Part shown: one piece after another, positions 22,488-64,000 of the stretch
Position numbering within the stretch: position 1 is the stretch's first letter
Layout of the letters: each line of letters begins with the position of its first letter
From: Cyanobium sp. ATX 6F1
GTDB lineage: Bacteria > Cyanobacteriota > Cyanobacteriia > PCC-6307 > Cyanobiaceae
DNA: 64,000 bases
Direction: 5' to 3'
NCBI RefSeq assembly: GCF_024346315.1
Contig: NZ_JAGQCS010000001.1
Location: forward strand, 372,001-436,000
Position numbers and translations under genes: made by a program
The notes under the pieces: generated by a model
The model's database searches: none
Seen by the model: only the letters and a program-made list of their open reading frames with translations
What the model was told of the DNA's origin: nothing

Positions 22488-22641
22488 CCATCAAAATCAG
22501 AGGACGATGTTCGAATGACGGCACCCAGCACGCGATTGTGATGATCCCAGCTGGGTATGTGCCCAGGTCAATCTGCTACTCCCGGCATCTCAAAACCACC
22601 CAGCAGCCGAGTGCTCAACCTGGATCTCATGAAGCGAACTC

Positions 22642-23013
22642 TCACTCCTCATCTTCTGATGTACCAGCCGGGATCAGACGGATCTGCTTCTTGCCCAGCT
22701 TGATCTCGAACTCATCGCCAGGCTTGAGGTCAAGCAGGGACGTGTAGGCCTTGCCCACCATGAGGTTGCCGTTGAACTGAATCTTGGTGGTGTAGCTCAA
22801 GCTGCGGCCGGCCCTTCCCTTGCCGTTGCCACCGCCATCTCCGAGGCTGACGCCCTTGGCTTCCAGCAGCGCCTCATAGAACGCCGTGAAGTTCAGCCGC
22901 TCGCTGCCGTCCTTCTTGGTGCTGAGGTAGCCGGCGGCTCGCACCAGATCGGACTTGGAGGCATCACCAAGCTCCTTGACTTTGGCGAGCAGTTCAGGTC
23001 CGGTTAGCGCCAT
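22642..23013 (-). CDS. cyAbrB family DNA-binding regulator (copy 1)
   Basis: A 123-residue cyanobacterial AbrB-like protein. The N-terminal part (LLAKVKELGDASKSDLVRAAGY, about residues 9-30) is the helical cyAbrB-specific segment. A Gly-rich linker follows (near residue 60), and the C-terminal swapped-hairpin DNA-binding domain has KIQFNGNLMVGKAYTSLLDL and GDEFEIKLGKKQIRL. It ends in an acidic tail. In cyanobacteria these proteins globally repress carbon and nitrogen genes. A second intact copy lies 2.4 kb away and a fragment at 19407. Confidence 0.92.
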   Translation of the reverse strand: MALTGPELLAKVKELGDASKSDLVRAAGYLSTKKDGSERLNFTAFYEALLEAKGVSLGDGGGNGKGRAGRSLSYTTKIQFNGNLMVGKAYTSLLDLKPGDEFEIKLGKKQIRLIPAGTSEDEE

Positions 23014-23185
23014 AGATCTCTAAAGAAGATTCAATACATGTTACATCCTCCTCAAGCATATCCGCTGCATTGGCCACTCCTTTGAGTCCGATGTATTTAC
23101 AAGCCGAGATCCAATTCCCGCATGGATCACCATCGGGCGCTCATGGGTTGGCTAGGTATGGAGTACTCCCACCTGTGCCACCGCC

Positions 23186-23878
23186 ATGGTCAAGCCATCT
23201 GCAGCCCCTGGGGCCAGTATCACCATCTGCCCCAACGGCCCGTATGTGGTTAGCGGCGGGGTGCCACTGAGCGAGCAGTCCATCGTGGTGAACGCCGCTG
23301 GTGACTCCATTGATTACCAGCAGGGCCGCCTGTATCCGTCCCAGGCCACCTTTGAACTATGCCGTTGTGGCCAGTCCTCGACCAAGCCGTTCTGCGATGG
23401 AACCCACGCCACAGTGAGCTTCGATGGCACCACCACCTGCAGCCATGCCCCATACCTAGAGCAGGCCGAAACCATCGCAGGTCCCGTGCTCTCGATCACC
23501 GATGCCAAGGCGCTGTGCTCCAATGCCCGTTTCTGCGACCCCCACGGCGGCATCTGGGCACTCGTGAAGCAGTCGGACGAACCAGACGCACACCAGCTGG
23601 TGGTCTTCCAGGCCAGCCATTGCCCCTCAGGGCGATTGATCGCCTGGGAGCGTGCCACGGGTCAATCGATCGAATCCGCCCACCCGCCATCGATCGCCTT
23701 GATCGTGGATACGAAGGAAGGCGTGAATGGCCCCATATGGGTGCGAGGTGGCATTCCCATCCACTCGGAGATGGGGCTCGCCTATGAGGTTCGCCAGCAG
23801 TGCACCCTCTGCCGCTGCGGCCGATCAGCCAACAAGCCGTTCTGCGATGGAGCCCACACGCCAACACACTCGGCCTGA
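23186..23878 (+). CDS. Iron-sulfur protein with two CDGSH-type domains
   Basis: The 230-residue protein carries two CDGSH signatures: CRCGQSSTKPFCDGTH (about residues 59-74) and CRCGRSANKPFCDGAH (about residues 207-222). Each has the three Cys and one His that hold a redox-labile 2Fe-2S cluster. Between them is a segment (KALCSNARFCDPHGG) resembling the iron-binding domain found in related bacterial double-CDGSH proteins. The start is the ATG at 23186. It stands alone, divergent from the cyAbrB gene; a redox or Fe-S transfer role is likely, but the partner is unknown. Confidence 0.9.
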   Translation: MVKPSAAPGASITICPNGPYVVSGGVPLSEQSIVVNAAGDSIDYQQGRLYPSQATFELCRCGQSSTKPFCDGTHATVSFDGTTTCSHAPYLEQAETIAGPVLSITDAKALCSNARFCDPHGGIWALVKQSDEPDAHQLVVFQASHCPSGRLIAWERATGQSIESAHPPSIALIVDTKEGVNGPIWVRGGIPIHSEMGLAYEVRQQCTLCRCGRSANKPFCDGAHTPTHSA

Positions 23879-24173
23879 CGAGTCCGATTGCCCGATCCAT
23901 CCATCCCACCAATTGGATCACCATCAGGCTGGACCCTTCCGCCAGGTTTTTAGGTCAAGCAGCTTGGTCACCACCAGCTCCTGTCAGAGCAGCAGGGCGA
24001 GCTTCTGCCCGCCCTCGCCGCTGAGGGGCACGTCGTGAGCTGAACCCCTCCCCTGGATCGGATCGCCTAAGCACTGGCACCCAAGAGCCGTCGAAGCGAT
24101 GTGATGGCTGAACAAGCCCCTCACGCTGCTCTCCTTGCGGAGCTGCGCTGGCACTGGGGAGAGTGAACACTCC

Positions 24174-24404
24174 TCAGGCTGTATGGAGCATCGTCAATGG
24201 CGCCTGAGGGGCACGGCGCAGCGCGACTTTCTTGGAAACCGCAGCAATAGCGAGCCCCTTGGGCCCAGAAGCTCCGACTGTTTCACCCGTGGTCCGCATA
24301 AGACCAGGCAGGAAGATCATCAAAAAGAGGACTGCCGGCAAGCCTACAAACAGGACAAGGGTAAAGCCGTAACCAAGAATGATCTCAGCAATTGAGTTTG
24401 TCAT
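24174..24404 (-). CDS. Small membrane protein (76 aa), unknown
   Basis: The first 40 residues form one strong hydrophobic helix (ILGYGFTLVLFVGLPAVLFL) after a short MTNSIAE start, and a Lys/Arg-containing tail follows. It resembles small photosystem or cytochrome-complex subunits in size and layout, but I cannot name it. The C-terminal 25 residues look random and may reflect read-through after a mutation. The ATG is at 24404. Confidence 0.45.
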   Translation of the reverse strand: MTNSIAEIILGYGFTLVLFVGLPAVLFLMIFLPGLMRTTGETVGASGPKGLAIAAVSKKVALRRAPQAPLTMLHTA

Positions 24405-24865
24405 CAGAAGTCTCTAACCTTTACGTGGAATGTGAAGGGAGAAGAAGATTATCCTCTCCACATTTCGGCCTATCCCCACATCTCTTCTTCTGATCACAAT
24501 CTAGCCACGTCTTGGGCATGGAGCCCGTTGCAGGAAAATCAAGTGAAAATATTTGCTCTCCTTAACTCATCGATCCAACAAGAGCCTCCGAGGAGCCTGG
24601 AGAGCTGCTTGTAGGCCGTGCGAAGGCCGATCCAGGGTTGCGCTTCAGGGGCTGAGAGTGCCACGGCCTAATCAAGATGCCGGCGGAAAAGCCGTACCAA
24701 ACTGGTGGTTGTCAGACGAGTCATCTGGTTGCCAGGCATGGTGTGTGATGTCTTAGGACGGCGGTGACACTCCAACCCTGGCGACCTCACACCCCCTTGT
24801 GAGTTGAACAACCTGGTGGGACTACACAGCTAGGGTTTGGGCAACGCCCTGCACATCTGGTCGCC
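24405..24865. other. Intergenic region ahead of the aldolase fragment
   Basis: No gene is seen in this 461-base stretch. It contains a short hairpin CTCACA-CCCCCT-TGTGAG (24786-24803) without a T-run. The segment just before 24866 is presumably the original aldolase leader. Confidence 0.45.
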
Positions 24866-25393
24866 ATGGCACTCGAGGCCTTCCGCCAGGAGCTCATCGC
24901 CACCGCCACCACCATCGCTTCCCCGGGCAAGGGATTGCTGGCGGCCGATGAATCCACCGGCACGATCGGCAAGCGCTTCGAGGCGATCGCCCTCGAGAAC
25001 ACCGAGAACCATCGCCGCGCCTACCGCTCTCTGCTGGGCACAACCAGCGGGCTGGGCGAGTACATCAGCGGCGTGATCCTCTACGAGGAAACCCTCTTCC
25101 AGGACGCCAGCGATGGCACGCCGATCCTGGAGCTTTTCCGCCGCCAGGGGATCATTCCCGGCATAGAGGCCTACGACCAGTGCCTGGCTGAACAGGGGCA
25201 GGAGTTCGTCGACGCCTGCGAAGCCGCCAAGCGGGGAAAACCCCTGGTCACCGACGACAACCTCGCCGAGTTCACCGCCCTCTCCCAGAATGGGTTTGCC
25301 CGCGAGCCCCGGGAATTACTAGCGCTGGCCCAGTGGCCCGACCATGTCACCGGCTTCCTGGTGTCATGTGAGCCCTTTCATCGACCTGAGTGA
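24866..25393 (+). pseudogene. Truncated class I fructose-bisphosphate aldolase fused to unrelated sequence
   Basis: The frame encodes 175 residues; class I aldolases have about 340-360. Residues 1-98 match the family N-terminus: APGKGLLAADEST-like SPGKGLLAADESTGTIGKRF, then GLGEYISGVILYEETL and RRQGIIPGI. After residue 98, where the family continues with the active-site barrel, the sequence becomes an unrelated helical stretch (EAYDQCLAEQGQEFVDACEA). The active-site lysines are missing, so it cannot be a working aldolase. The fused part could be the tail of another gene. A recombination origin is likely. Confidence 0.75.
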
Positions 25394-51818: not shown

Positions 51819-51843
51819 GGGCCGCTGCGGCGGCCCTTTTTTT
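51819..51843 (+). terminator. Strong rho-independent terminator
   Basis: A perfect stem GGGCCGC-TGCG-GCGGCCC (51819-51836) is followed by seven T. Confidence 0.88.
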
Positions 51844-52232
51844 CAACTCGCCAACAGCACTGGTCTCGCATTGGGAGAAATGACGTTCAAGGGCTGCCTG
51901 CGGCAACCATGAATCCCACGCAGTTCCTCAATCAATGGCCTGCGGGGGTGTAGAGATTGGCAAAACTTCCCAGAGTGAGAGGTTGGATAGGCTGACAGTG
52001 TTAAACAGGTATCGTGAGCTACACCCATTGAGGCAAGGAGTTGCAGTTGGAGGATTCTGGGGGCAATGTGGTTGTTGAGCGAGGAATGATGGGCTGAATG
52101 GGATAGGAAGATCGGCAGGATGGACGTTCTGCCGAAGTAGAGTTAGCCTGCTGACCTGTATCTTTTGTGCTGGGTCAGCGATTGCTGCTCAACCCACTCT
52201 AAGTTGTTCCTCATCCTTACTCGAACCTCAGA
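51844..52232. other. Intergenic region, composition changes to AT-rich
   Basis: No coding sequence is visible. GC-rich host sequence gives way to a lower-GC stretch from about 51950 leading into the EF-hand gene, which likely marks the left edge of an island. Confidence 0.45.
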
Positions 52233-52967
52233 ATGGAAGATCCACGTAAGGTTCTACAGCAAGCACGATTGATCGCCGCATTCATTCGTCATGCCGATAC
52301 AGAGGGGCACATCGACTCGAAAAACGAGGATTTCTGGCGTGATCTCGACACAATCATACCTAAGCCATACCAACTTGATACCGCCCTCTACGACCTAAAC
52401 GGCAACGGAACTCTCACATACGAAGAGATCGGAGAGGATGGCTTTGCCCCTATCGTGATTGCAGGCATCACAGAACACAGCGCACAAAGGCTAACTGAGC
52501 TCTTGACGGTAATTGATACGGAGCTCACATCGCTACGCGGAGATCTCAAGGATATCTTGACATTTGACCCTCACCAACTCTCCGAAGAGTTGATGGGCGC
52601 TCAACTCCAAATTAAGAATGTCAAGAAAGAGGCCTTGAAAAGCGATCTTCTTAAACCGCTACTGCGCCCGCTTGAACAGATTGAGGGACAACTGGGGAGC
52701 GTTAACACGGTTGCGTCTAATTATATTGATGTATACAAGAACATAATCCGCCCGGTTCAAAAAGAGGGTGAATCAGGAATTAAGGCTACGGTACGATGGG
52801 CCGTCTTTAGTATCTTGGCTTCAACGTTCTTATCCTGGCTTGTCAGTAACTGGTCCGCCTTGAAGAGCGCACCAGCGCCATCAGATTCTACTTCTCAATC
52901 GCAAACAGTCAGGCACCAGAGGTCGAACCTTATCGGAACAACCGCAGGCATTAAGGAAGACTCCTAA
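52233..52967 (+). CDS. EF-hand-like protein with C-terminal membrane helix
   Basis: A 244-residue protein. The N-terminal part contains an EF-hand-type loop DLNGNGTLTYEE (about residues 54-65), and a helical middle (LTELLTVIDTELTSLRGDL) follows. One transmembrane helix (AVFSILASTFLSWLVSNW, about 190-207) precedes a Ser/Thr-rich tail. The layout (sensor-like soluble part, then one membrane helix) resembles small membrane-disrupting effectors, but no defence motif is recognised. DNA is AT-rich compared with the host. Confidence 0.6.
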   Translation: MEDPRKVLQQARLIAAFIRHADTEGHIDSKNEDFWRDLDTIIPKPYQLDTALYDLNGNGTLTYEEIGEDGFAPIVIAGITEHSAQRLTELLTVIDTELTSLRGDLKDILTFDPHQLSEELMGAQLQIKNVKKEALKSDLLKPLLRPLEQIEGQLGSVNTVASNYIDVYKNIIRPVQKEGESGIKATVRWAVFSILASTFLSWLVSNWSALKSAPAPSDSTSQSQTVRHQRSNLIGTTAGIKEDS

Positions 52968-53256
52968 TCCCTAGGCCAACAAAGTCTGCGATATTCACTG
53001 CTATATCTTGTGCGAAGCAGTGTTGCGGCGGTAGGGAGCGGTTGATTGCTGTTAACAAGTAGTTCTCAATGGCACGCTGGCTAACATGGCCATGCACCTG
53101 GCCCGCATCCGCAGATTCATTGCGCTCTCTTGGATATTCTTCCTTCAGCTCTTTGTGGGCAGGTGATGGCCAGCGTCTCTCTGTCTTGTGGATCAACCCC
53201 AAGTCCATAAGTTGTAGCTGTCCTGGGATCTCGCAAGGGAGATCTCCACATGGCAT
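52951..53256 (-). CDS. Possible gene fragment (101 aa), unknown
   Basis: A 101-residue minus-strand frame converging with and overlapping the EF-hand gene by 17 bases. Segments such as SQRAIENYLLTAINRSL recall a motif in TOPRIM-containing OLD-type ATPases (R-x-IENYL), so it may be a leftover of such a gene. No ATPase or TOPRIM core is present. It could also be a chance frame. Confidence 0.28.
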   Translation of the reverse strand: MPCGDLPCEIPGQLQLMDLGLIHKTERRWPSPAHKELKEEYPRERNESADAGQVHGHVSQRAIENYLLTAINRSLPPQHCFAQDIAVNIADFVGLGIRSLP

Positions 53257-53355
53257 TACGACGTTACAGTTCTGATCAATCTCATTGATAAGTTGCAGGT
53301 CTTCCCCAAATCTGCTCCATCCCGGCTAGGACCAGGGCCGTTCAAGAGCGACGGG

Positions 53356-54234
53356 ATGAGAGCCAAGTCAGGGTCGACCTACACAGCCAGCGGAAACTTC
53401 AGTGACTGGTGGATGGCCCTTCCCATGATCCCTCCCGAGCCCGACGGGCTGCAGCACCGAAGGCTTGGCCGCCTCTGGCGTGACACCACGCGATTCAGCG
53501 GAACGCCTCCAAAGGATGGGGAAACCAGGGAATACCTCAACAAGCGTTCCCATGAGTTCGTCAACCCAAGGCACGAGACCTACCTCACTGTGGGGGCCTG
53601 GGAGAACTTCACGTTGTTTGAGCCCGATCAATGGATCCCAGCGATTGTTGAACTCGCAGGCCTGGAGCCGCCATCAGAAGTTGTGGACTGCCGCTGGAGC
53701 TACGAGTGGGAACAGGGGGAGAACGGTCGGCCGATGGCCGATGTCGTGATCCACTACCGCGATGGTCGTGGGGTTCTTGGACTCCTTGTGATTGAAGCGA
53801 AGAATCTTGGCAAAACGCTTACCGGCGATAAGAACCAGAATCCTGGCTACTACCTTGATCAGGATGAATTCGAGGAGGCCGCAGAGAGCCGTCGGCTCAT
53901 CTACTGCATTGATGAAGCCTTCATTCCTGATGACGCAGCCCACTTCATTGGTCCACAACATCGTTCTGGGATCATCACTTGGCAGCAGCTGGCGGGCCTG
54001 CAGATCAAGCTCGCCGGCCAGCTTCCGGTGCCACCGCTGATCCGGGCTTTCATCGCAGGCTCCATACAGCACCAAGCTGCCTTGCGTGGCATCAAGCCCA
54101 CAGCTCTGGCATTTGAGTACTTAGAGACCGAACGGAGCATGATCGAGGTGGATCAGGCTCTGAAAGAAGATCGACAGAAGCAACCCGAGCGCAGCGAGCA
54201 GTTATGGAAGCTGCCTGAGCTCGACGTCAGCTGA
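53356..54234 (+). CDS. PD-(D/E)XK-like nuclease-family protein, unknown role
   Basis: A 292-residue protein starting at the ATG at 53356, with a purine-rich GCGACGGG just upstream. A restriction-endonuclease-like core is visible: MADVVIHYRDGRG (Asp near residue 137) followed by LLVIEAKNLGK (E-x-K near 153) and a helix with Gln/Asp (YYLDQDEFEEAA). N-terminal tryptophan-rich stretches (FSDWWMALPMIP) are unassigned. It stands alone, with codon use close to the host. Confidence 0.6.
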   Translation: MRAKSGSTYTASGNFSDWWMALPMIPPEPDGLQHRRLGRLWRDTTRFSGTPPKDGETREYLNKRSHEFVNPRHETYLTVGAWENFTLFEPDQWIPAIVELAGLEPPSEVVDCRWSYEWEQGENGRPMADVVIHYRDGRGVLGLLVIEAKNLGKTLTGDKNQNPGYYLDQDEFEEAAESRRLIYCIDEAFIPDDAAHFIGPQHRSGIITWQQLAGLQIKLAGQLPVPPLIRAFIAGSIQHQAALRGIKPTALAFEYLETERSMIEVDQALKEDRQKQPERSEQLWKLPELDVS

Positions 54235-54372
54235 GCCTGGGCTTTGGTGAGCGACAAGGGCGGCGGCGGCCTGCTTCAGCGTGCGCGGCGGCGCAAGGGC
54301 CAGGCGAGTTCGCTTCGCTCACCCTTGCCCTCGCCGCGCCAACGCTTTGCGTCCTTCGCCTGGTTCACAACC

Positions 54373-58211: not shown

Positions 58212-58709
58212 TCAGCCGCGGGCGAGCTGGCCCTGGAAGGGCGTGGGCTGCGGCGCCTGCCAGTTGCGCAGCCGCGGAAGGATCAGCAGCAGAGATTCGA
58301 CATGCGCCCGCCGCAGAGCGCCGGGACTGAGAGATCCATTGGCGGCGGTCGGTTCGGCGTATTCCGTCGACACCTCCTCCATGAGTAGCTCAGTGGCGTA
58401 CTCGATCACATCGAGTTTCCGCTTGGGCAATTGGTTGGGGTCGGCCGGGCTGACGGCCGCCTTGCGAGTGGTCTTGATCACGAACGGATCGGCCGCCGTC
58501 TGACCGCCGACCAGGGCGGCATCGATCGCGGCAATGGCATCGAGGCTGGCCTTGGCGCCTGGAATGGCGTCGGGGTAGCTGCGCTCCAGGGCCGCCATCT
58601 CGTCGTTGATGGCGCGGATGCTGGCCGGCGACACAGGGATCGTCAGCGCCCGGCGGATCGCTTCTAGATCAGACGGCCGCCAGGCGTAGGGGTTGGGGGT
58701 TTCGCTCAC
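58212..58709 (-). CDS. Small phage head-tail connector-like protein
   Basis: A 165-residue helical protein starting with GTG at 58709, overlapping the portal stop (GTGA). Blocks include SDLEAIRRALTIPVSPASIR and LDVIEYATELLMEEVS. Size, helix content and position directly after the portal gene suggest a head-tail adaptor or completion protein; the assignment is by context. Confidence 0.5.
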   Translation of the reverse strand: MSETPNPYAWRPSDLEAIRRALTIPVSPASIRAINDEMAALERSYPDAIPGAKASLDAIAAIDAALVGGQTAADPFVIKTTRKAAVSPADPNQLPKRKLDVIEYATELLMEEVSTEYAEPTAANGSLSPGALRRAHVESLLLILPRLRNWQAPQPTPFQGQLARG

Positions 58710-60325
58710 GTTGCCTCCGGAGCCGAGGCAGCAAAGCTGTCGGCGCTGCTGCTGCCGATCGGTGTCACCAACCCCGGAGAAGCAGCCAGAGCCAGCTGGT
58801 GGCGCAGCTCATCGGTGCTGATCACACCGCGCTCGTGGAGGGTGAGCCACTCGCCAACAGACGGCAGCGGCCTGGGCGGAGGGGTGAGCGGCGTCACGAT
58901 CAGAGACACGCCAGCACCCTGCTGGAGAACGTCACCCGTGGCCCGGCACCAATGCTCCAGCAGGGTGGAGAACACCGAGGTCTTCTGGGTGGCAAGTGAC
59001 TGGAGCAGGGCGTAGGCCTGGCCAGCGGTGAGGCTCACCTCCTGCTCGCTCTTGCCTGGTCCGCGGTTCTGGGTCGGCACCAGCGCATCACGGCGCATGG
59101 TTTCATCCAGCAAGCTCAGGTAAGCGCGGTGCTCGGCGAGTGAGCGGGCGCGGATCTCCTTCCAGTTGAAGTCCGCACCCTCAGGCAGGTCCATGAAGGT
59201 GGAGGTGGAGAGCACGAGCTGCTCAGGGGCGCGAGCTTCGCCGTCCTCGGTGCGCTGGAAGCCGTACTGATCCACCAGGCCGCTGCGCACACCCACCGGC
59301 AGGGCGCAGCGGGAGAGAAGGTCCTCGTATTCGCTCTTGAGCCGGTAGTGGGTGAGGTACTGGTTGGCCAGGCCCAGGTGAGGCAGATCACCTTCCCCGA
59401 AGGCCGCTCCGTCGGCGGCGTACCAGACGCAGGGCATGGTGTGCTGGCCCTCCAGCAGCACCGCAGGCCCGAGGGGCTCAGCCTGGTAGCCGCAGGAAGC
59501 CGAGGTCGATGGCACGGCCCGGTACGCCTGAAATCGCAGGCCATCGGCGGCCAGCTCCGCCACCCGGTAGGTCCAGTTGGAGAGGTCGTAGGCCGGCGTG
59601 TTGTTCGGCGTGAGGTAATGAACCGGGACCCCCCCAAAGTGGTCGGGTCTGATCGGGTTGTGAACGTCCACCCGCCAGGCCACGCGCACCGGCAGACCGT
59701 TGGGATTGGGGAGTTGCCAGTCGAGGAAGTCAGCGCGAGGCACCAGGGCCAGCCGAGGCAACGAGAGGCGATCACCACGGTGCAGAGCATCAAGCCTGTG
59801 CCCTTCTGAGGGCCAGCGATGTTCCGGCGGCAGAACCAGGATCAGGCAGCCGCCATCACGCAGCACCAGCAGGTCTGCGATGAACAGGAACACCCCCAGA
59901 TCGGTGCCGCGTCCATCCACGTCACCGATCACCGCCTGCAGCGACGGCGGCAGCGCTTGCCAGTGCAGGAAAGAGAGCATCCCGGCATAAGTGCGCAGCG
60001 CGTCGCGGAAGAACCCGGTGGGCCTGGCGTTTTCGATCCGGTTGCGATAGGAGGAATCCGGCTCCTTGACGCCTGGGGGCAGGTAGACCGTGCGGCGGCT
60101 GGTGCCGTCAGGGGCATCGAGCAGGTTCCAGCAATCGAAGGCCAGCTGCAACCGATCGCGCAGGCCACGCAGGGTGTTGTGCTCGCGCCAGGGCTCCAGC
60201 AGCGGGGTGCCCTTGGCGGCAGCGCGTGCCCGCTGCTCGCTCGCAGAGAGCGGCAGCCACTTGTTGCGGGATCGGCTGCGACTCCTGGAGGCCAAGGGCT
60301 TGGTGCGGCTGGGAGCTATTGCCAC
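58706..60325 (-). CDS. Phage portal protein (DUF4055-like)
   Basis: A 539-residue protein starting with GTG at 60325. Portal-like features are an N-terminal basic tail, RRTVYLPPGVKEPDSSYRNR, TGFFRDALRTYAGMLSF, a central HNPIRPDHFGGVPVHYL beta domain and C-terminal TDELRHQLALAASPGLVTP. It most resembles the DUF4055 group of portals through which DNA enters the head. It begins the prophage head block, whose terminase is absent upstream and has been replaced by an integrase remnant. Confidence 0.75.
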   Translation of the reverse strand: MAIAPSRTKPLASRSRSRSRNKWLPLSASEQRARAAAKGTPLLEPWREHNTLRGLRDRLQLAFDCWNLLDAPDGTSRRTVYLPPGVKEPDSSYRNRIENARPTGFFRDALRTYAGMLSFLHWQALPPSLQAVIGDVDGRGTDLGVFLFIADLLVLRDGGCLILVLPPEHRWPSEGHRLDALHRGDRLSLPRLALVPRADFLDWQLPNPNGLPVRVAWRVDVHNPIRPDHFGGVPVHYLTPNNTPAYDLSNWTYRVAELAADGLRFQAYRAVPSTSASCGYQAEPLGPAVLLEGQHTMPCVWYAADGAAFGEGDLPHLGLANQYLTHYRLKSEYEDLLSRCALPVGVRSGLVDQYGFQRTEDGEARAPEQLVLSTSTFMDLPEGADFNWKEIRARSLAEHRAYLSLLDETMRRDALVPTQNRGPGKSEQEVSLTAGQAYALLQSLATQKTSVFSTLLEHWCRATGDVLQQGAGVSLIVTPLTPPPRPLPSVGEWLTLHERGVISTDELRHQLALAASPGLVTPIGSSSADSFAASAPEAT

Positions 60326-60340
60326 AGGGGGGGTGCCTCA

Positions 60341-60523
60341 ATGTCAGCCTCCAACGGCATGAAGTGGCGCTACCTGTATTCCATCCGCCTACTGCAGGGC
60401 AGTCTGGACATTCGCACGATCAAGGAGCTTCTGGGTCATCGGGACGTGAGCACGACCATGATCAACAGACATGAATTGAACCAGAGCAAACTCGGTTTTC
60501 GAAGCCCAGCCGCCCCTTTTTAA
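60341..60523 (+). pseudogene. C-terminal remnant of an integron-type tyrosine recombinase
   Basis: The 60 residues from 60341 end with LDIRTIKELLGHRDVSTTM, then INRHELNQSKLGFRSP. This aligns with the IntI-type end D-I-R-T-V-Q-x-L-L-G-H ... STTMIYTH ... GVRSP. The catalytic Tyr (in M-I-Y-T-H) is Asn here, and the upstream His-x-x-Arg box is also lost (WRYLYSIRLL). It is thus inactive and truncated. It abuts the portal gene start and faces the cassette genes. Confidence 0.75.
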
Positions 60524-60743
60524 CTTTAAGAACAGTTGGTTCTCAGACCCGGTTAAAGTTCAGAACAAGCCACATAGGTCTCTGTGATCAGTTGGCCATA
60601 AATGGATCTAGGCTCCTACACTGCAGGAATTGAGGGTTTTATCTGGTTGGATGGTGAGCCTGTAGGGAGGTTGCGGACCCGCCCAATCATTGTTAGCCAG
60701 TTACAATTTTGGTACGCCAGGCTATTCCTTCAGATAACACATC

Positions 60744-61523
60744 ATGCCTGAAATGCGCACGTACAATCAGATTGACGTCACGTTTGATTTCAGGTCAGAC
60801 ACACCCGGCTATCCGAAGAAAGATCCAGACTCCTACAGCCCAGCTCTTCGTCGACATCATCGGCATTTGTGGAGTAAACACCTACCTAATGGCGTGTTGT
60901 TCACACTCGATGACATCGGCCAGCACTACCTACACCACAGGTCCGGATTGGGGGAATTCTTCCTTGCCAGCGATGCGGTGATCCCTACGTTCAGGAAAGA
61001 ATCGCGTCTGGAGAAGGTCCTCAGTTCGATCCCTACCGCAGAGCAGGAGTCCTTTCTACGGGTGGGCTACACGATCGGCGGGATGATGGTGTTCCCAGCA
61101 GAGCGGGTTGGCCGAAAGATGACAATCAACGGCGCACGCGGTTTCCACCCACGGATCAAAGATCGGTTCGACCTTACGGTCGAGTGTATCCGTCGACACT
61201 ACCGCAGCGAGCCAAGTCCGTTGGGTGACGTTCTCCAGCGATACGGTTCCTTTTTGGGTCTGTTCGGTGACTTTCGCGGATACGTTGAGTTCTTCCTGTT
61301 ACAAGACCTCGTCACCGAGGACTGTTCGGCAGTGAGATTCTTCTCCTCATTCATGGACTTCAACACATCACCGGTCCCGCAGGACCTTGATGGCTATCTG
61401 GCATATCGGCAGGCCGCAATAGAGTTCATCGAATCCAGGAATCGTCGAATTTACCTGTGGAGTGCTGAACAACAAGCTGGCCAACACGCCGTGCAGCCGA
61501 CGGAGGCGAATGTAACCAGTTGA
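60744..61523 (+). CDS. DUF6994-like protein, probable integron cassette gene
   Basis: A 259-residue protein. The N-terminal FDFRSDTPGYPKKDPDSYSP, LRRHHRHLWSKHLPNG and FTLDDIGQHYLHH, then GGMMVFPAERVGRKMTINGA, match a conserved bacterial family I recall as DUF6994, function unknown. Start ATG 60744. A putative attC-like hairpin (61513-61551) overlaps its stop, and an 11-base repeat AATTTTGGTAC precedes both it and the next gene. Composition differs from the host. Confidence 0.75.
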   Translation: MPEMRTYNQIDVTFDFRSDTPGYPKKDPDSYSPALRRHHRHLWSKHLPNGVLFTLDDIGQHYLHHRSGLGEFFLASDAVIPTFRKESRLEKVLSSIPTAEQESFLRVGYTIGGMMVFPAERVGRKMTINGARGFHPRIKDRFDLTVECIRRHYRSEPSPLGDVLQRYGSFLGLFGDFRGYVEFFLLQDLVTEDCSAVRFFSSFMDFNTSPVPQDLDGYLAYRQAAIEFIESRNRRIYLWSAEQQAGQHAVQPTEANVTS

Positions 61524-61551
61524 TGCCACCGCGGCTGACGGCTATCGGTTA
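61513..61551 (+). repeat. Degenerate attC-like hairpin
   Basis: TAACC / GGTTA outer arms, then GAT / ATC and GCC / GGC inner arms with an extra T, at the end of the first cassette gene; GTTAGAA (61548-61554) resembles the GTTRRRY core. Shorter than typical attC, so tentative. Confidence 0.35.
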
Positions 61552-61633
61552 GAAAAAACGGAATTTTGGTACCTTCTCTTCGCATTGTGCATCTCTCTCA
61601 ATACACGTCAGAATGCCTTCTTGAGTTGTGAAC

Positions 61634-62494
61634 ATGAATATACGTCTATTGACCTGGAACGTGAACTTCCGTCCCGCGAAGGTTCTCAACGCGTTCATTG
61701 TCGATGGTCAGATTGCCTTTGATCTATTGACGTTTCAGGAGGTGAAGAACAAGTACGCCACGGAGTTCATGCAACGTCTTTCAGAACTAGGGTTTCACGC
61801 GATACACACTGGAGACTCGGGGGATGGTGGAAAAACATACGGTAACTTAATTGCGAGCAGGTGGCCGATTGAACAAAAGCCACTCGGTTTGTCCAATCCA
61901 CCGCCGTTTCCTTGCCTCATCGGTCGTGCACATGTTTCAATTGGCACCAATGAGGGTGTAGATATCCTGACCGTACATGCACCAAATGGATCCAACAATG
62001 GCTGGGACAAGATCCATACGCTAGAGGCGGTTCAGCGAGTAATTCGATCGATCTCTCCTGGCCCAGTAATCGTTACTGGCGACTACAATGAACCACAGTT
62101 CTTTCCTGGCAAACTTCCTGTTCGTAGTTGGGCGTGGACAAGCGAGAAAAGCTGGGCGAGTCGCCGAGATGAGCTGATGACTCGCGAGAACGCTCGAGGC
62201 GGTATGGAAGGTCATCCGCGTCAACGCTGGGACAATGCGGTCGGCTGGTTCTTCGATGATGGTGCCCTGCATGACCTCCAGCACGCCTTTTGGGCAAAGT
62301 ACGGTACCGGTGCGATGGAAGCAACCTATTTGACACGCTCAGCTTCGCGTCCTGAGCGGTGGTTTGACCACGCATTCATATCATCTCACTTCGAAGTTAT
62401 CGAGTGTGCTTACAGGCACGACGTACGTCGTCCAGGCGGCGAGAGCGACCATAGCGCGTTGTGCATCGAACTCGCTTTTCGACCACCTAACTAA
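61634..62494 (+). CDS. Endonuclease/exonuclease/phosphatase (EEP) family protein, cassette gene
   Basis: A 286-residue EEP hydrolase. Catalytic residues are in order: LTWNVNFRP (Asn, near residue 10), LLTFQEVKN (Glu, near 40), VTGDYNEP (Asp and Asn, near 150), WFDHAFIS near 245 and ESDHSALCI (Asp-His, near 273). The family cleaves phosphodiester bonds in nucleic acids or lipids. No signal peptide is present. Start ATG 61634; GTG 61628 is also possible. A clear attC lies 120 bases after its stop. Confidence 0.85.
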   Translation: MNIRLLTWNVNFRPAKVLNAFIVDGQIAFDLLTFQEVKNKYATEFMQRLSELGFHAIHTGDSGDGGKTYGNLIASRWPIEQKPLGLSNPPPFPCLIGRAHVSIGTNEGVDILTVHAPNGSNNGWDKIHTLEAVQRVIRSISPGPVIVTGDYNEPQFFPGKLPVRSWAWTSEKSWASRRDELMTRENARGGMEGHPRQRWDNAVGWFFDDGALHDLQHAFWAKYGTGAMEATYLTRSASRPERWFDHAFISSHFEVIECAYRHDVRRPGGESDHSALCIELAFRPPN

Positions 62495-62616
62495 TGTGCA
62501 ACAGTGCAAGAGCAATGATGGAGATACTCCCAAAAGCATCCTCGAATCGTCGCATGCCACGATCTAGTGTTTTTGAGTTCACATGAAATTTCGCTCTTAC
62601 AATGTTCATTTGATCT

Positions 62617-62702
62617 GCCTAACATCAAGGCGCAGCGGGCGGATCCATAAAGCTCGATGCCAGCATGGAGATCCTTCCCGGCGCTGATCTTAAGCGTTAG
62701 GA
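62617..62702 (+). repeat. Integron attC recombination site
   Basis: The 86-base site starts with R' GCCTAAC (62617-62623, fits RYYYAAC) and ends with R'' GTTAGGA (62696-62702, near GTTRRRY). The inner boxes AAGGCGCAGCG and CGCTGATCTT pair with a one-base bulge, as in attC. Orientation matches the cassette genes. Confidence 0.75.
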
Positions 62703-62737
62703 TTACTCGCTGACAAGGAATTTAGGGAAGAATCCCA

Positions 62738-63652
62738 ATGAGCGTGCCGGATTTTCAGACATTTATGCGACCACTCCTCGAGGTTATCGATGGTCTACCT
62801 GAGCAAGAACTAAAGGTCGTCAAAAAGAAGCTTATTGAATTATTCAAGTTAACGGAGGACGACCTAAGAGAAAAAATCCCTAGCGGAAGAGCCTTCCTTT
62901 TTGACAATCGACTAGGATGGGCGAACACGTATCTGAAGAAAGCAGGGCTGATTGGGTCTGATAGGCGCGCATATCTACAAATAACAAAAAGTGGTCATGA
63001 GTTTCTTGCCAATCATAATGGAGAGATTAAGGTTGGCGACCTAAAGAAGATTCCACGTTTCAAAGAATTTCATCAAGCCAAAGGCAAAGAGTCCGTCGAT
63101 GCTGAAGCGGAATCCGCGGTTGAAGAACAAACTAGATCGCCCGAGGAGATTATCTTCGCTGCATACGAAATCGTCAACCGTGGACTGGTAAGTGAGCTGC
63201 TGAAAATAGTGAAGGGCTGCTCCCCCGCCTTCTTTGAAAAACTCGTCATCGATCTCATGATTGAAATGGGATATGGTGGTTCACGTAAAGAGGCCGGTAG
63301 CGCCATAGGGAAGTCTGGAGACGGAGGAATTGACGGAATTATAAACGAGGATAAACTTGGCTTGGATACTATTTACTTGCAGGCGAAACGCTGGGAAAAC
63401 ACAGTTCCAGTCAAGGAAATTCGTGATTTCGCTGGAAGTCTGATGGGCAAGAACGCAAGAAAAGGAGTGTTCATTACTACTTCGGACTTTCCCAAGAGCG
63501 CCCATGAGTTTGTCAGTTCCATTGATCGCAAGATCATCCTTATTGACGGAGAACGCCTCGCTAGACTGATGATTACAAACAACATAGGTGTCAACCCACG
63601 CGAAATCTTTGAATTGAAGAATGTGGACAACGACTATTTTGAAGAAACCTAA
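62738..63652 (+). CDS. mrr: Mrr-family restriction endonuclease, cassette gene
   Basis: A 304-residue protein with the full Mrr layout. N-terminal winged helix Mrr_N (residues about 5-95, VPDFQTFMRPLLEVIDG, YLQITKSGHEFL), then the catalytic domain: SPAFFEKLVIDLMIEMGYGG, GDGGIDGII with Asp near 196 and Q-A-K in IYLQAKRW near 215. Mrr cuts methylated or modified DNA (type IV restriction). Start ATG 62738, 36 bases after the attC, so it is probably the next cassette. DNA is AT-rich. Confidence 0.92.
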   Translation: MSVPDFQTFMRPLLEVIDGLPEQELKVVKKKLIELFKLTEDDLREKIPSGRAFLFDNRLGWANTYLKKAGLIGSDRRAYLQITKSGHEFLANHNGEIKVGDLKKIPRFKEFHQAKGKESVDAEAESAVEEQTRSPEEIIFAAYEIVNRGLVSELLKIVKGCSPAFFEKLVIDLMIEMGYGGSRKEAGSAIGKSGDGGIDGIINEDKLGLDTIYLQAKRWENTVPVKEIRDFAGSLMGKNARKGVFITTSDFPKSAHEFVSSIDRKIILIDGERLARLMITNNIGVNPREIFELKNVDNDYFEET

Positions 63653-63747
63653 GGAGTCAAACCACCCGATACTCTGACTTCACCAGGTTGAAGATCTTTA
63701 AGACTGTCAGGAAAGGCCATGAATGGGCCACAACTGCTTTTCGATCC

Positions 63748-64000
63748 TCAGCTATCCGCCTGTAGCGCAATCACGGTGACCGAGCAGGCATCATGGATCT
63801 CCCGCCAGCGCTCGGCGGTGATCCCCAGCCGCTGCGGCACAGCATGGGGCGGCTGTCCTTCCCGCAGCAACTTCTGGCCACTGGCGTAGAGGTCACGCCA
63901 GGACGGCGGCACTTTGATCGCAAAGCCGTGGTCTCGTAAGTAGTGCGTGATCTCGCCGTTGGCGTAGGTGCGGGCGTAGGGCCGAAAGGAGCGCCCGCCC
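63748..64000 (-). CDS. Sigma-factor-like protein, C-terminal part (cut by window edge)
   Basis: The minus-strand frame is open to the window edge and stops at 63748, giving 83 residues. RSFRPYARTYANGEITHYLR and DHGFAIKVPPSWRDLYASGQ resemble sigma70 region 2.4 into region 3 of cyanobacterial alternative sigma factors (usual form S-S-Y-A-x-P-x-I-R-G-E-I-x-H-Y-L-R-D). No region 4 follows before the stop, so it may be a short or specialised type. Codons are host-like. Confidence 0.6.
   Translation of the reverse strand, partial: GGRSFRPYARTYANGEITHYLRDHGFAIKVPPSWRDLYASGQKLLREGQPPHAVPQRLGITAERWREIHDACSVTVIALQADS

Follow-up and report, generated by a model that had tools for sequence, protein, structure and literature searches.

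Within the window (the whole stretch of 64,000 nucleotides that was analysed), the region 60326-63747 consists of an integron-integrase fragment, an attI site and three intact plus-strand genes. This region is probably a prophage-borne integron platform that has no integrase of its own and is loaded in trans by the integron integrase (IntI) of the host. Past insertion of the IntI type is well supported, and the host IntI may be the enzyme that acts on the phage attI and may still do so. Read from the sequence, the elements of this picture are an intI remnant, an attI, two attC sites, the boundaries of the cassettes, a location in a prophage, recurrence of the slot and an intact intI in the host.

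In the proposed mechanism, the prophage family carries the 3' tail of intI together with attI between the portal gene and a sigma-like/terminase ORF, in antisense to both, and cassettes enter between the phage attI and the point at which the sigma-like ORF ends. The intI copy of the phage is truncated and dead, and a complete chromosomal IntI (here that of contig 9) must therefore have inserted them in trans. The slot of the window holds three cassettes (DUF6994, an EEP nuclease and Mrr), two of them still with attC, and its attI would have turned host-type through recombination with the host integron.

Integrase remnant, attI and cassettes in the window

The left side of the slot holds a plus-strand 3' remnant of intI (60341-60523), in which about the last 50 residues are recognisable. 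It matches positions 265-311 of the integron-integrase model TIGR02249, which has 315, with an E value of 2.4e-11, whereas the XerC model reaches 1.1e-6, and the TIGR02249 match extends beyond the position of the catalytic tyrosine into the IntI-type tail. The remnant reads '...HRDVSTTMINRH...', so that the catalytic tyrosine is replaced by asparagine; nothing is left of the N-terminal domain or of the remaining catalytic residues. Beside the attI there is thus no functional integrase gene of the kind found in a complete integron. The preliminary description had recognised an IntI-type C-terminus without the catalytic tyrosine at 60341, and it had named as contrary results a grouping of the fragment with phage or XerC integrases and a lack of attC at 62617-62702; neither was obtained.

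The remnant is followed by an attI (60524-60694, plus strand), predicted by homology to the host attI up to the crossover G|TT, which lies between 60692 and 60693. Over the last 109 bp of intI and the attI, the window and contig 9 match at 77% of nucleotides up to G|TT. Homology to the host attI thus ends at 60692|60693, the junction expected of IntI insertion. The attI of the window is 80% identical to that of its own host and at most 65% identical to those of other hosts. Selection on the attI boxes has weak support (p 0.02, with boxes picked by eye) and plays no part in the argument.

Three cassettes follow on the plus strand. Cassette 1 (60693-61548) contains a DUF6994 gene at 60744-61523 (Pfam PF22507, 2.4e-89), and its attC (61479-61554, plus strand) overlaps the 3' end of that gene. 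Cassette 2 (61549-62696) contains an endonuclease/exonuclease/phosphatase (EEP) gene at 61628-62494 (PF03372, 3.3e-13) and ends in an attC at 62617-62702 (plus strand). Cassette 3 (62697-63747) contains a gene for an Mrr type IV restriction endonuclease at 62738-63652 (PADLOC mREase_IV, 9.6e-79), in which both domains expected of a type IV enzyme are predicted (Mrr_cat, 5.8e-35; Mrr_N, 1.7e-24). Neither the two covariance models described below nor a fold check found an attC 3' of mrr (lost or deleted). Homology to prophage relatives picks up again at 63739-63748, after the Mrr cassette. The GC content of the slot is 0.50, as compared with 0.62 for the window and its flank. The three same-strand genes and the foreign composition had been described before; the genes proved intact and were confirmed by Pfam. 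The second attC, the attI, the prophage context and the complete intI elsewhere had been overlooked.

The attC sites were scored with a first covariance model (R1), for which 10 attCs from related genomes and none from the window were selected by R''/R' motifs and folding, and with a second-round model (R2; 62 matches outside prophage slots). A scanner based on motif plus fold gave excess background at loose settings, and its role was limited to picking seeds for the covariance models. Both attC sites of the window were detected by models with neither site in training. The site at 62617-62702, already proposed as an attC, scored 49.0 bits with R1 (E 6.3e-11 in the 3.8-kb stretch; 4.9e-8 genome-wide) and 46.7 bits with R2. 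The site at 61479-61554 scored 23.5 bits with R1 and 29.4 bits with R2 (E 5.6e-7 over 3.8 kb), and its bottom strand has a fold z of -3.2. Covariation in the R2 alignment is strong: 90.9% of cells are paired, versus 68% after shuffling and at most 37% after sliding, and 13 of 18 pairs show changes on both sides. These figures are helped by the fact that the sequences had been aligned to the structure. An Rfam scan of the window, which does not test attC, gave no match.

As in a complete integron, cassettes here are bounded by attC, with two sites present and the borders of cassette 1 backed by a relative in another phylum. The two sites also make up a CALIN, that is, at least two nearby attC sites without a complete intI, since the complete intI lies on another contig. 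The relative of cassette 1 occurs in an Acidobacteria metagenome-assembled genome (MAG) from Lake Baikal (L116, 3001-3811), as a single cassette with its own attC and with unrelated genes on its flanks. It is 83% identical to the window at the nucleotide level over the exact cassette interval, from TGTTAGCC into the attC, and the offset between gene and attC is nearly equal in the two. The shared interval, near-equal offset and unrelated flanks indicate that the DUF6994 unit is truly mobile as a cassette and has passed between phyla, in a recent transfer. The EEP gene has no strong relative among 389 other genomes of the class, and a plasmid search with the EEP cassette gave no match. Mrr occurs widely in the other families of this class, and the Mrr matches in the class include no genome of the same family besides the host's own; a plasmid search with the Mrr cassette returned partial gene matches only.

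Prophage setting and recurrence of the slot

The left border of the slot is a minus-strand phage portal gene (58706-60325; 539 aa; PHROG 145 portal, 6.8e-21), the start codon of which lies about 16 bp from the intI remnant. The right border is the stop codon of a sigma-factor-like phage ORF, whose 3' end (63748-64000, minus strand; PHROG 36098, 1.5e-10) is in the window and which runs past it; the terminase large subunit (TerL; PHROG 38, 1.4e-71 in locus L008) comes next. The array is therefore antisense to both its flanking sigma-like/terminase ORF and the portal gene. Portal, scaffold, TerL, primase and helicase genes around the array identify a prophage that carries both packaging and replication functions. 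GenBank relatives of the portal belong to Synechococcus and Prochlorococcus phages, and on this basis the host is taken to be picocyanobacterial. The cyanophages S-CBS2 and PSS2 were considered as examples of an empty slot and set aside, since their portals are distant (about 29%) and their neighbours differ. Relative to locus L068, the prophage has a second insertion at 51824-54257, with ORFs of unknown family at 52233-52967 and 53293-54234 and a solitary plus-strand attC at 53079-53182 (39 bits with R2), the R' box of which looks decayed.

These surroundings bear on the reading of the preliminary description, in which a cyanobacterial chromosomal integron, unrelated to phage biology, had lost its integrase and kept defence cassettes. 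The IntI-type remnant, the attC sites and Mrr are all real, and to that extent the idea of a decayed integron with at least one defence-type cassette (Mrr, by PADLOC) held. It is not the chromosomal integron of this genome: phage genes lie on both sides, the slot recurs in many prophages, and the search for an intI elsewhere, which had been proposed, led to contig 9, where a complete intI is accompanied by an attI and cassettes that are separate from the prophage-borne array. We regard a chromosomal integron bereft of its integrase as scarcely credible. Decay as a single event likewise fails, given the recurrence of the slot in the prophage family.

Relatives of the portal were found in 26 of 151 genomes of the family, and one of them (G146) is 95% identical to that of the window. 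The order TerL, sigma-like ORF, variable slot and portal is retained in all loci with both borders, while the cargo differs. The 24 related slots that were measured span 0.5-8.8 kb and have a GC content below that of their surroundings. C-terminal IntI remnants lie near the portal in ten loci, namely the window, contig 3 of the same genome, the sister species, G146, G106 (two loci), G105, G159, G019 and G164, and the remnants of G159, G105 and G019 share a truncation junction. An attC adjoins the stop codon of the sigma-like ORF in several loci. Of 15 R2 matches in the prophage loci, 14 are inside slots, which make up 17% of the bases (p 2e-10); the lone match outside is the one at 53079-53182 in the window. 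All attC sites in slots have a single orientation, equal to the direction of the array.

The cargo of related slots comprises HEC-01AB, IetAS, Lamassu LmuB (two loci), a dGTPase, an OLD/AriA-like ATPase, type I restriction genes, an FRG protein and PDC-S14; Mrr is the defence-type cargo of the window's own slot. At another locus (L069, 6731-12046), the slot is filled by one ORF of 1772 aa with a weak AAA/Avs4-like match, a candidate defence protein. Because slot proteins are often anti-phage, the slot is similar to the hotspots for defence genes in P2 and P4 prophages, as a variable locus between conserved phage genes that carries predicted anti-phage systems. It probably provides the prophage with cargo that can be exchanged and is often anti-phage, and this cargo may protect the lysogen.

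About half of the slots have neither an intI remnant nor an attC, so that IntI is not the sole route and other routes of exchange exist. This also lends weight to a different explanation, in which a fragment of a chromosomal integron was joined to the prophage once, by illegitimate recombination, and has been inert since. The variable slots of relatives would then be an ordinary prophage hotspot, in which the phage genes on either side allow exchange by homologous recombination and IntI has no role. The remnants are truncated or decayed, the intI and attI of the window are themselves a mosaic made by homologous recombination, and P2 and P4 hotspots are known without integron parts (PMC9122126). 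Against this stand the attI G|TT junctions in the window and on contig 3 of two species, the attC at the right border of several slots and the enrichment of attC in slots in one orientation, and a slot cassette shared, with exact cassette borders, with a main integron. On balance, an inert fragment seems unlikely.

The host integron and exchange with the slot

The complete intI on contig 9 of the host genome scores 445 bits, above the curated cut-off, and its product aligns nearly end to end, catalytic motifs included, with IntI4 of known structure. It has its own attI and is followed by two attCs and by several cassettes, among them PIN domain and toxin-antitoxin types. The slot of the window and this integron have no cassette in common. 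In the host integrons (L007, 7748-11174; L025, L031 and L033), intI is co-directional with the cassettes and the attI lies past the 3' end of the gene, whereas class 1 integrons have the opposite arrangement. The sister species has a further decayed remnant of IntI (L026, 9344-9520; G001 contig 25), which was considered as the counterpart locus of the window and rejected, since it has no prophage genes in common with the window. Proteins related to the integron integrase, many of them almost complete in length, are also encoded on 44 viral contigs of IMG/VR (L128-L171); either integrons are common on viruses or these contigs are misclassified.

At the orthologous locus on contig 3, two species have matching sequences up to the attI crossover and differ after it. 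In one species, this locus holds a cassette (two small genes, by eye HicB/HicA-like) to which a main-integron cassette of the other species is 84% identical, from TT onward in both. Several slot attIs form a phage-type group, while those of G159 and G105 are nearest to the host attI of G019 (87-89%), and by alignment the intI remnant of the window is a mosaic, prophage-type up to about 60465 and host intI-like beyond. Judging from the mosaic remnant and the host-like slot attIs, homologous recombination with the integron of the host seems to renew the phage dock.

Elsewhere in the host genome, a cluster of four attC sites lies on contig 11 (G000, 22530-25224; L091), and isolated sites lie on contig 4 (82566-82649), contig 5 (231268-231354) and contig 16 (22933-23022). 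Those on contigs 4, 5 and 11 have no portal, TerL or IntI match nearby, and cassettes are thus scattered outside the main integron. It could then be that the host IntI used a secondary, non-attI site in the prophage and that the neighbouring intI remnant is irrelevant; the attC at 53079-53182 and the solitary state of the DUF6994 cassette in the Acidobacteria MAG agree with this, as do the scattered sites on all four contigs. We consider it very improbable, since insertion took place at the crossover of an attI that is homologous to that of the host over about 170 bp, and the same position is reused throughout the prophage family.

We therefore favour a prophage platform served in trans. Against it count the divergence of the phage attI copies, the last cassette of the window with no attC, the slots that have no integron parts and the lack of a cassette common to the window slot and the contig-9 integron. 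A complete intI and the prophage co-occur more often than chance would give (14 of 151 genomes; odds ratio 11, p 1.6e-6). Genus and genome size confound this association, and a complete intI is absent from 12 of the 26 portal-bearing genomes. With somewhat less than even confidence, we put forward a wider proposal, that a temperate phage lineage domesticated an integron dock by keeping attI and discarding the integrase, so that the host IntI loads and swaps defence cassettes at a fixed slot of the packaging operon and the attI is refreshed from the host. If this is true, prophages would carry an integron dock between hosts, beyond cassettes alone.

Comparison with known systems

Qi et al. 2023 (PMC9892861) reported integrons and CALINs from phage genomes, among them the CALIN of Shewanella prophage M16-3, which has its own attI. 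Like the array of the window, those elements have phage-borne attC cassettes, in some cases with an attI and with no intI nearby. However, the reported cases are scattered, with no cyanophage in the main text, whereas here a whole prophage family makes repeated use of one fixed position, where a truncated intI and an attI lie beside the portal and an attC lies beside the sigma-like ORF.

Sedentary chromosomal integrons store anti-phage genes, according to Darracq et al. 2025 as cited in PMC13064858, and by that account they resemble the window in holding defence genes as attC cassettes. The arrays described there are chromosomal, whereas the dock described here is carried by a prophage and lacks an integrase.

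The hotspots of P2 and P4 prophages (2022, PMC9122126) are, like the slot of the window, small variable loci between two conserved phage genes and rich in anti-phage systems. How their cargo is exchanged is addressed in PMC9122126 by speculation only, and integron parts go unmentioned there, whereas in the present prophage family many slots are bordered by attI and attC. For the fast exchange of cargo in prophage defence hotspots, such borders point, in one phage family, to a specific enzyme, and the intact integron integrase of the host could be what swaps the cargo of the slot.
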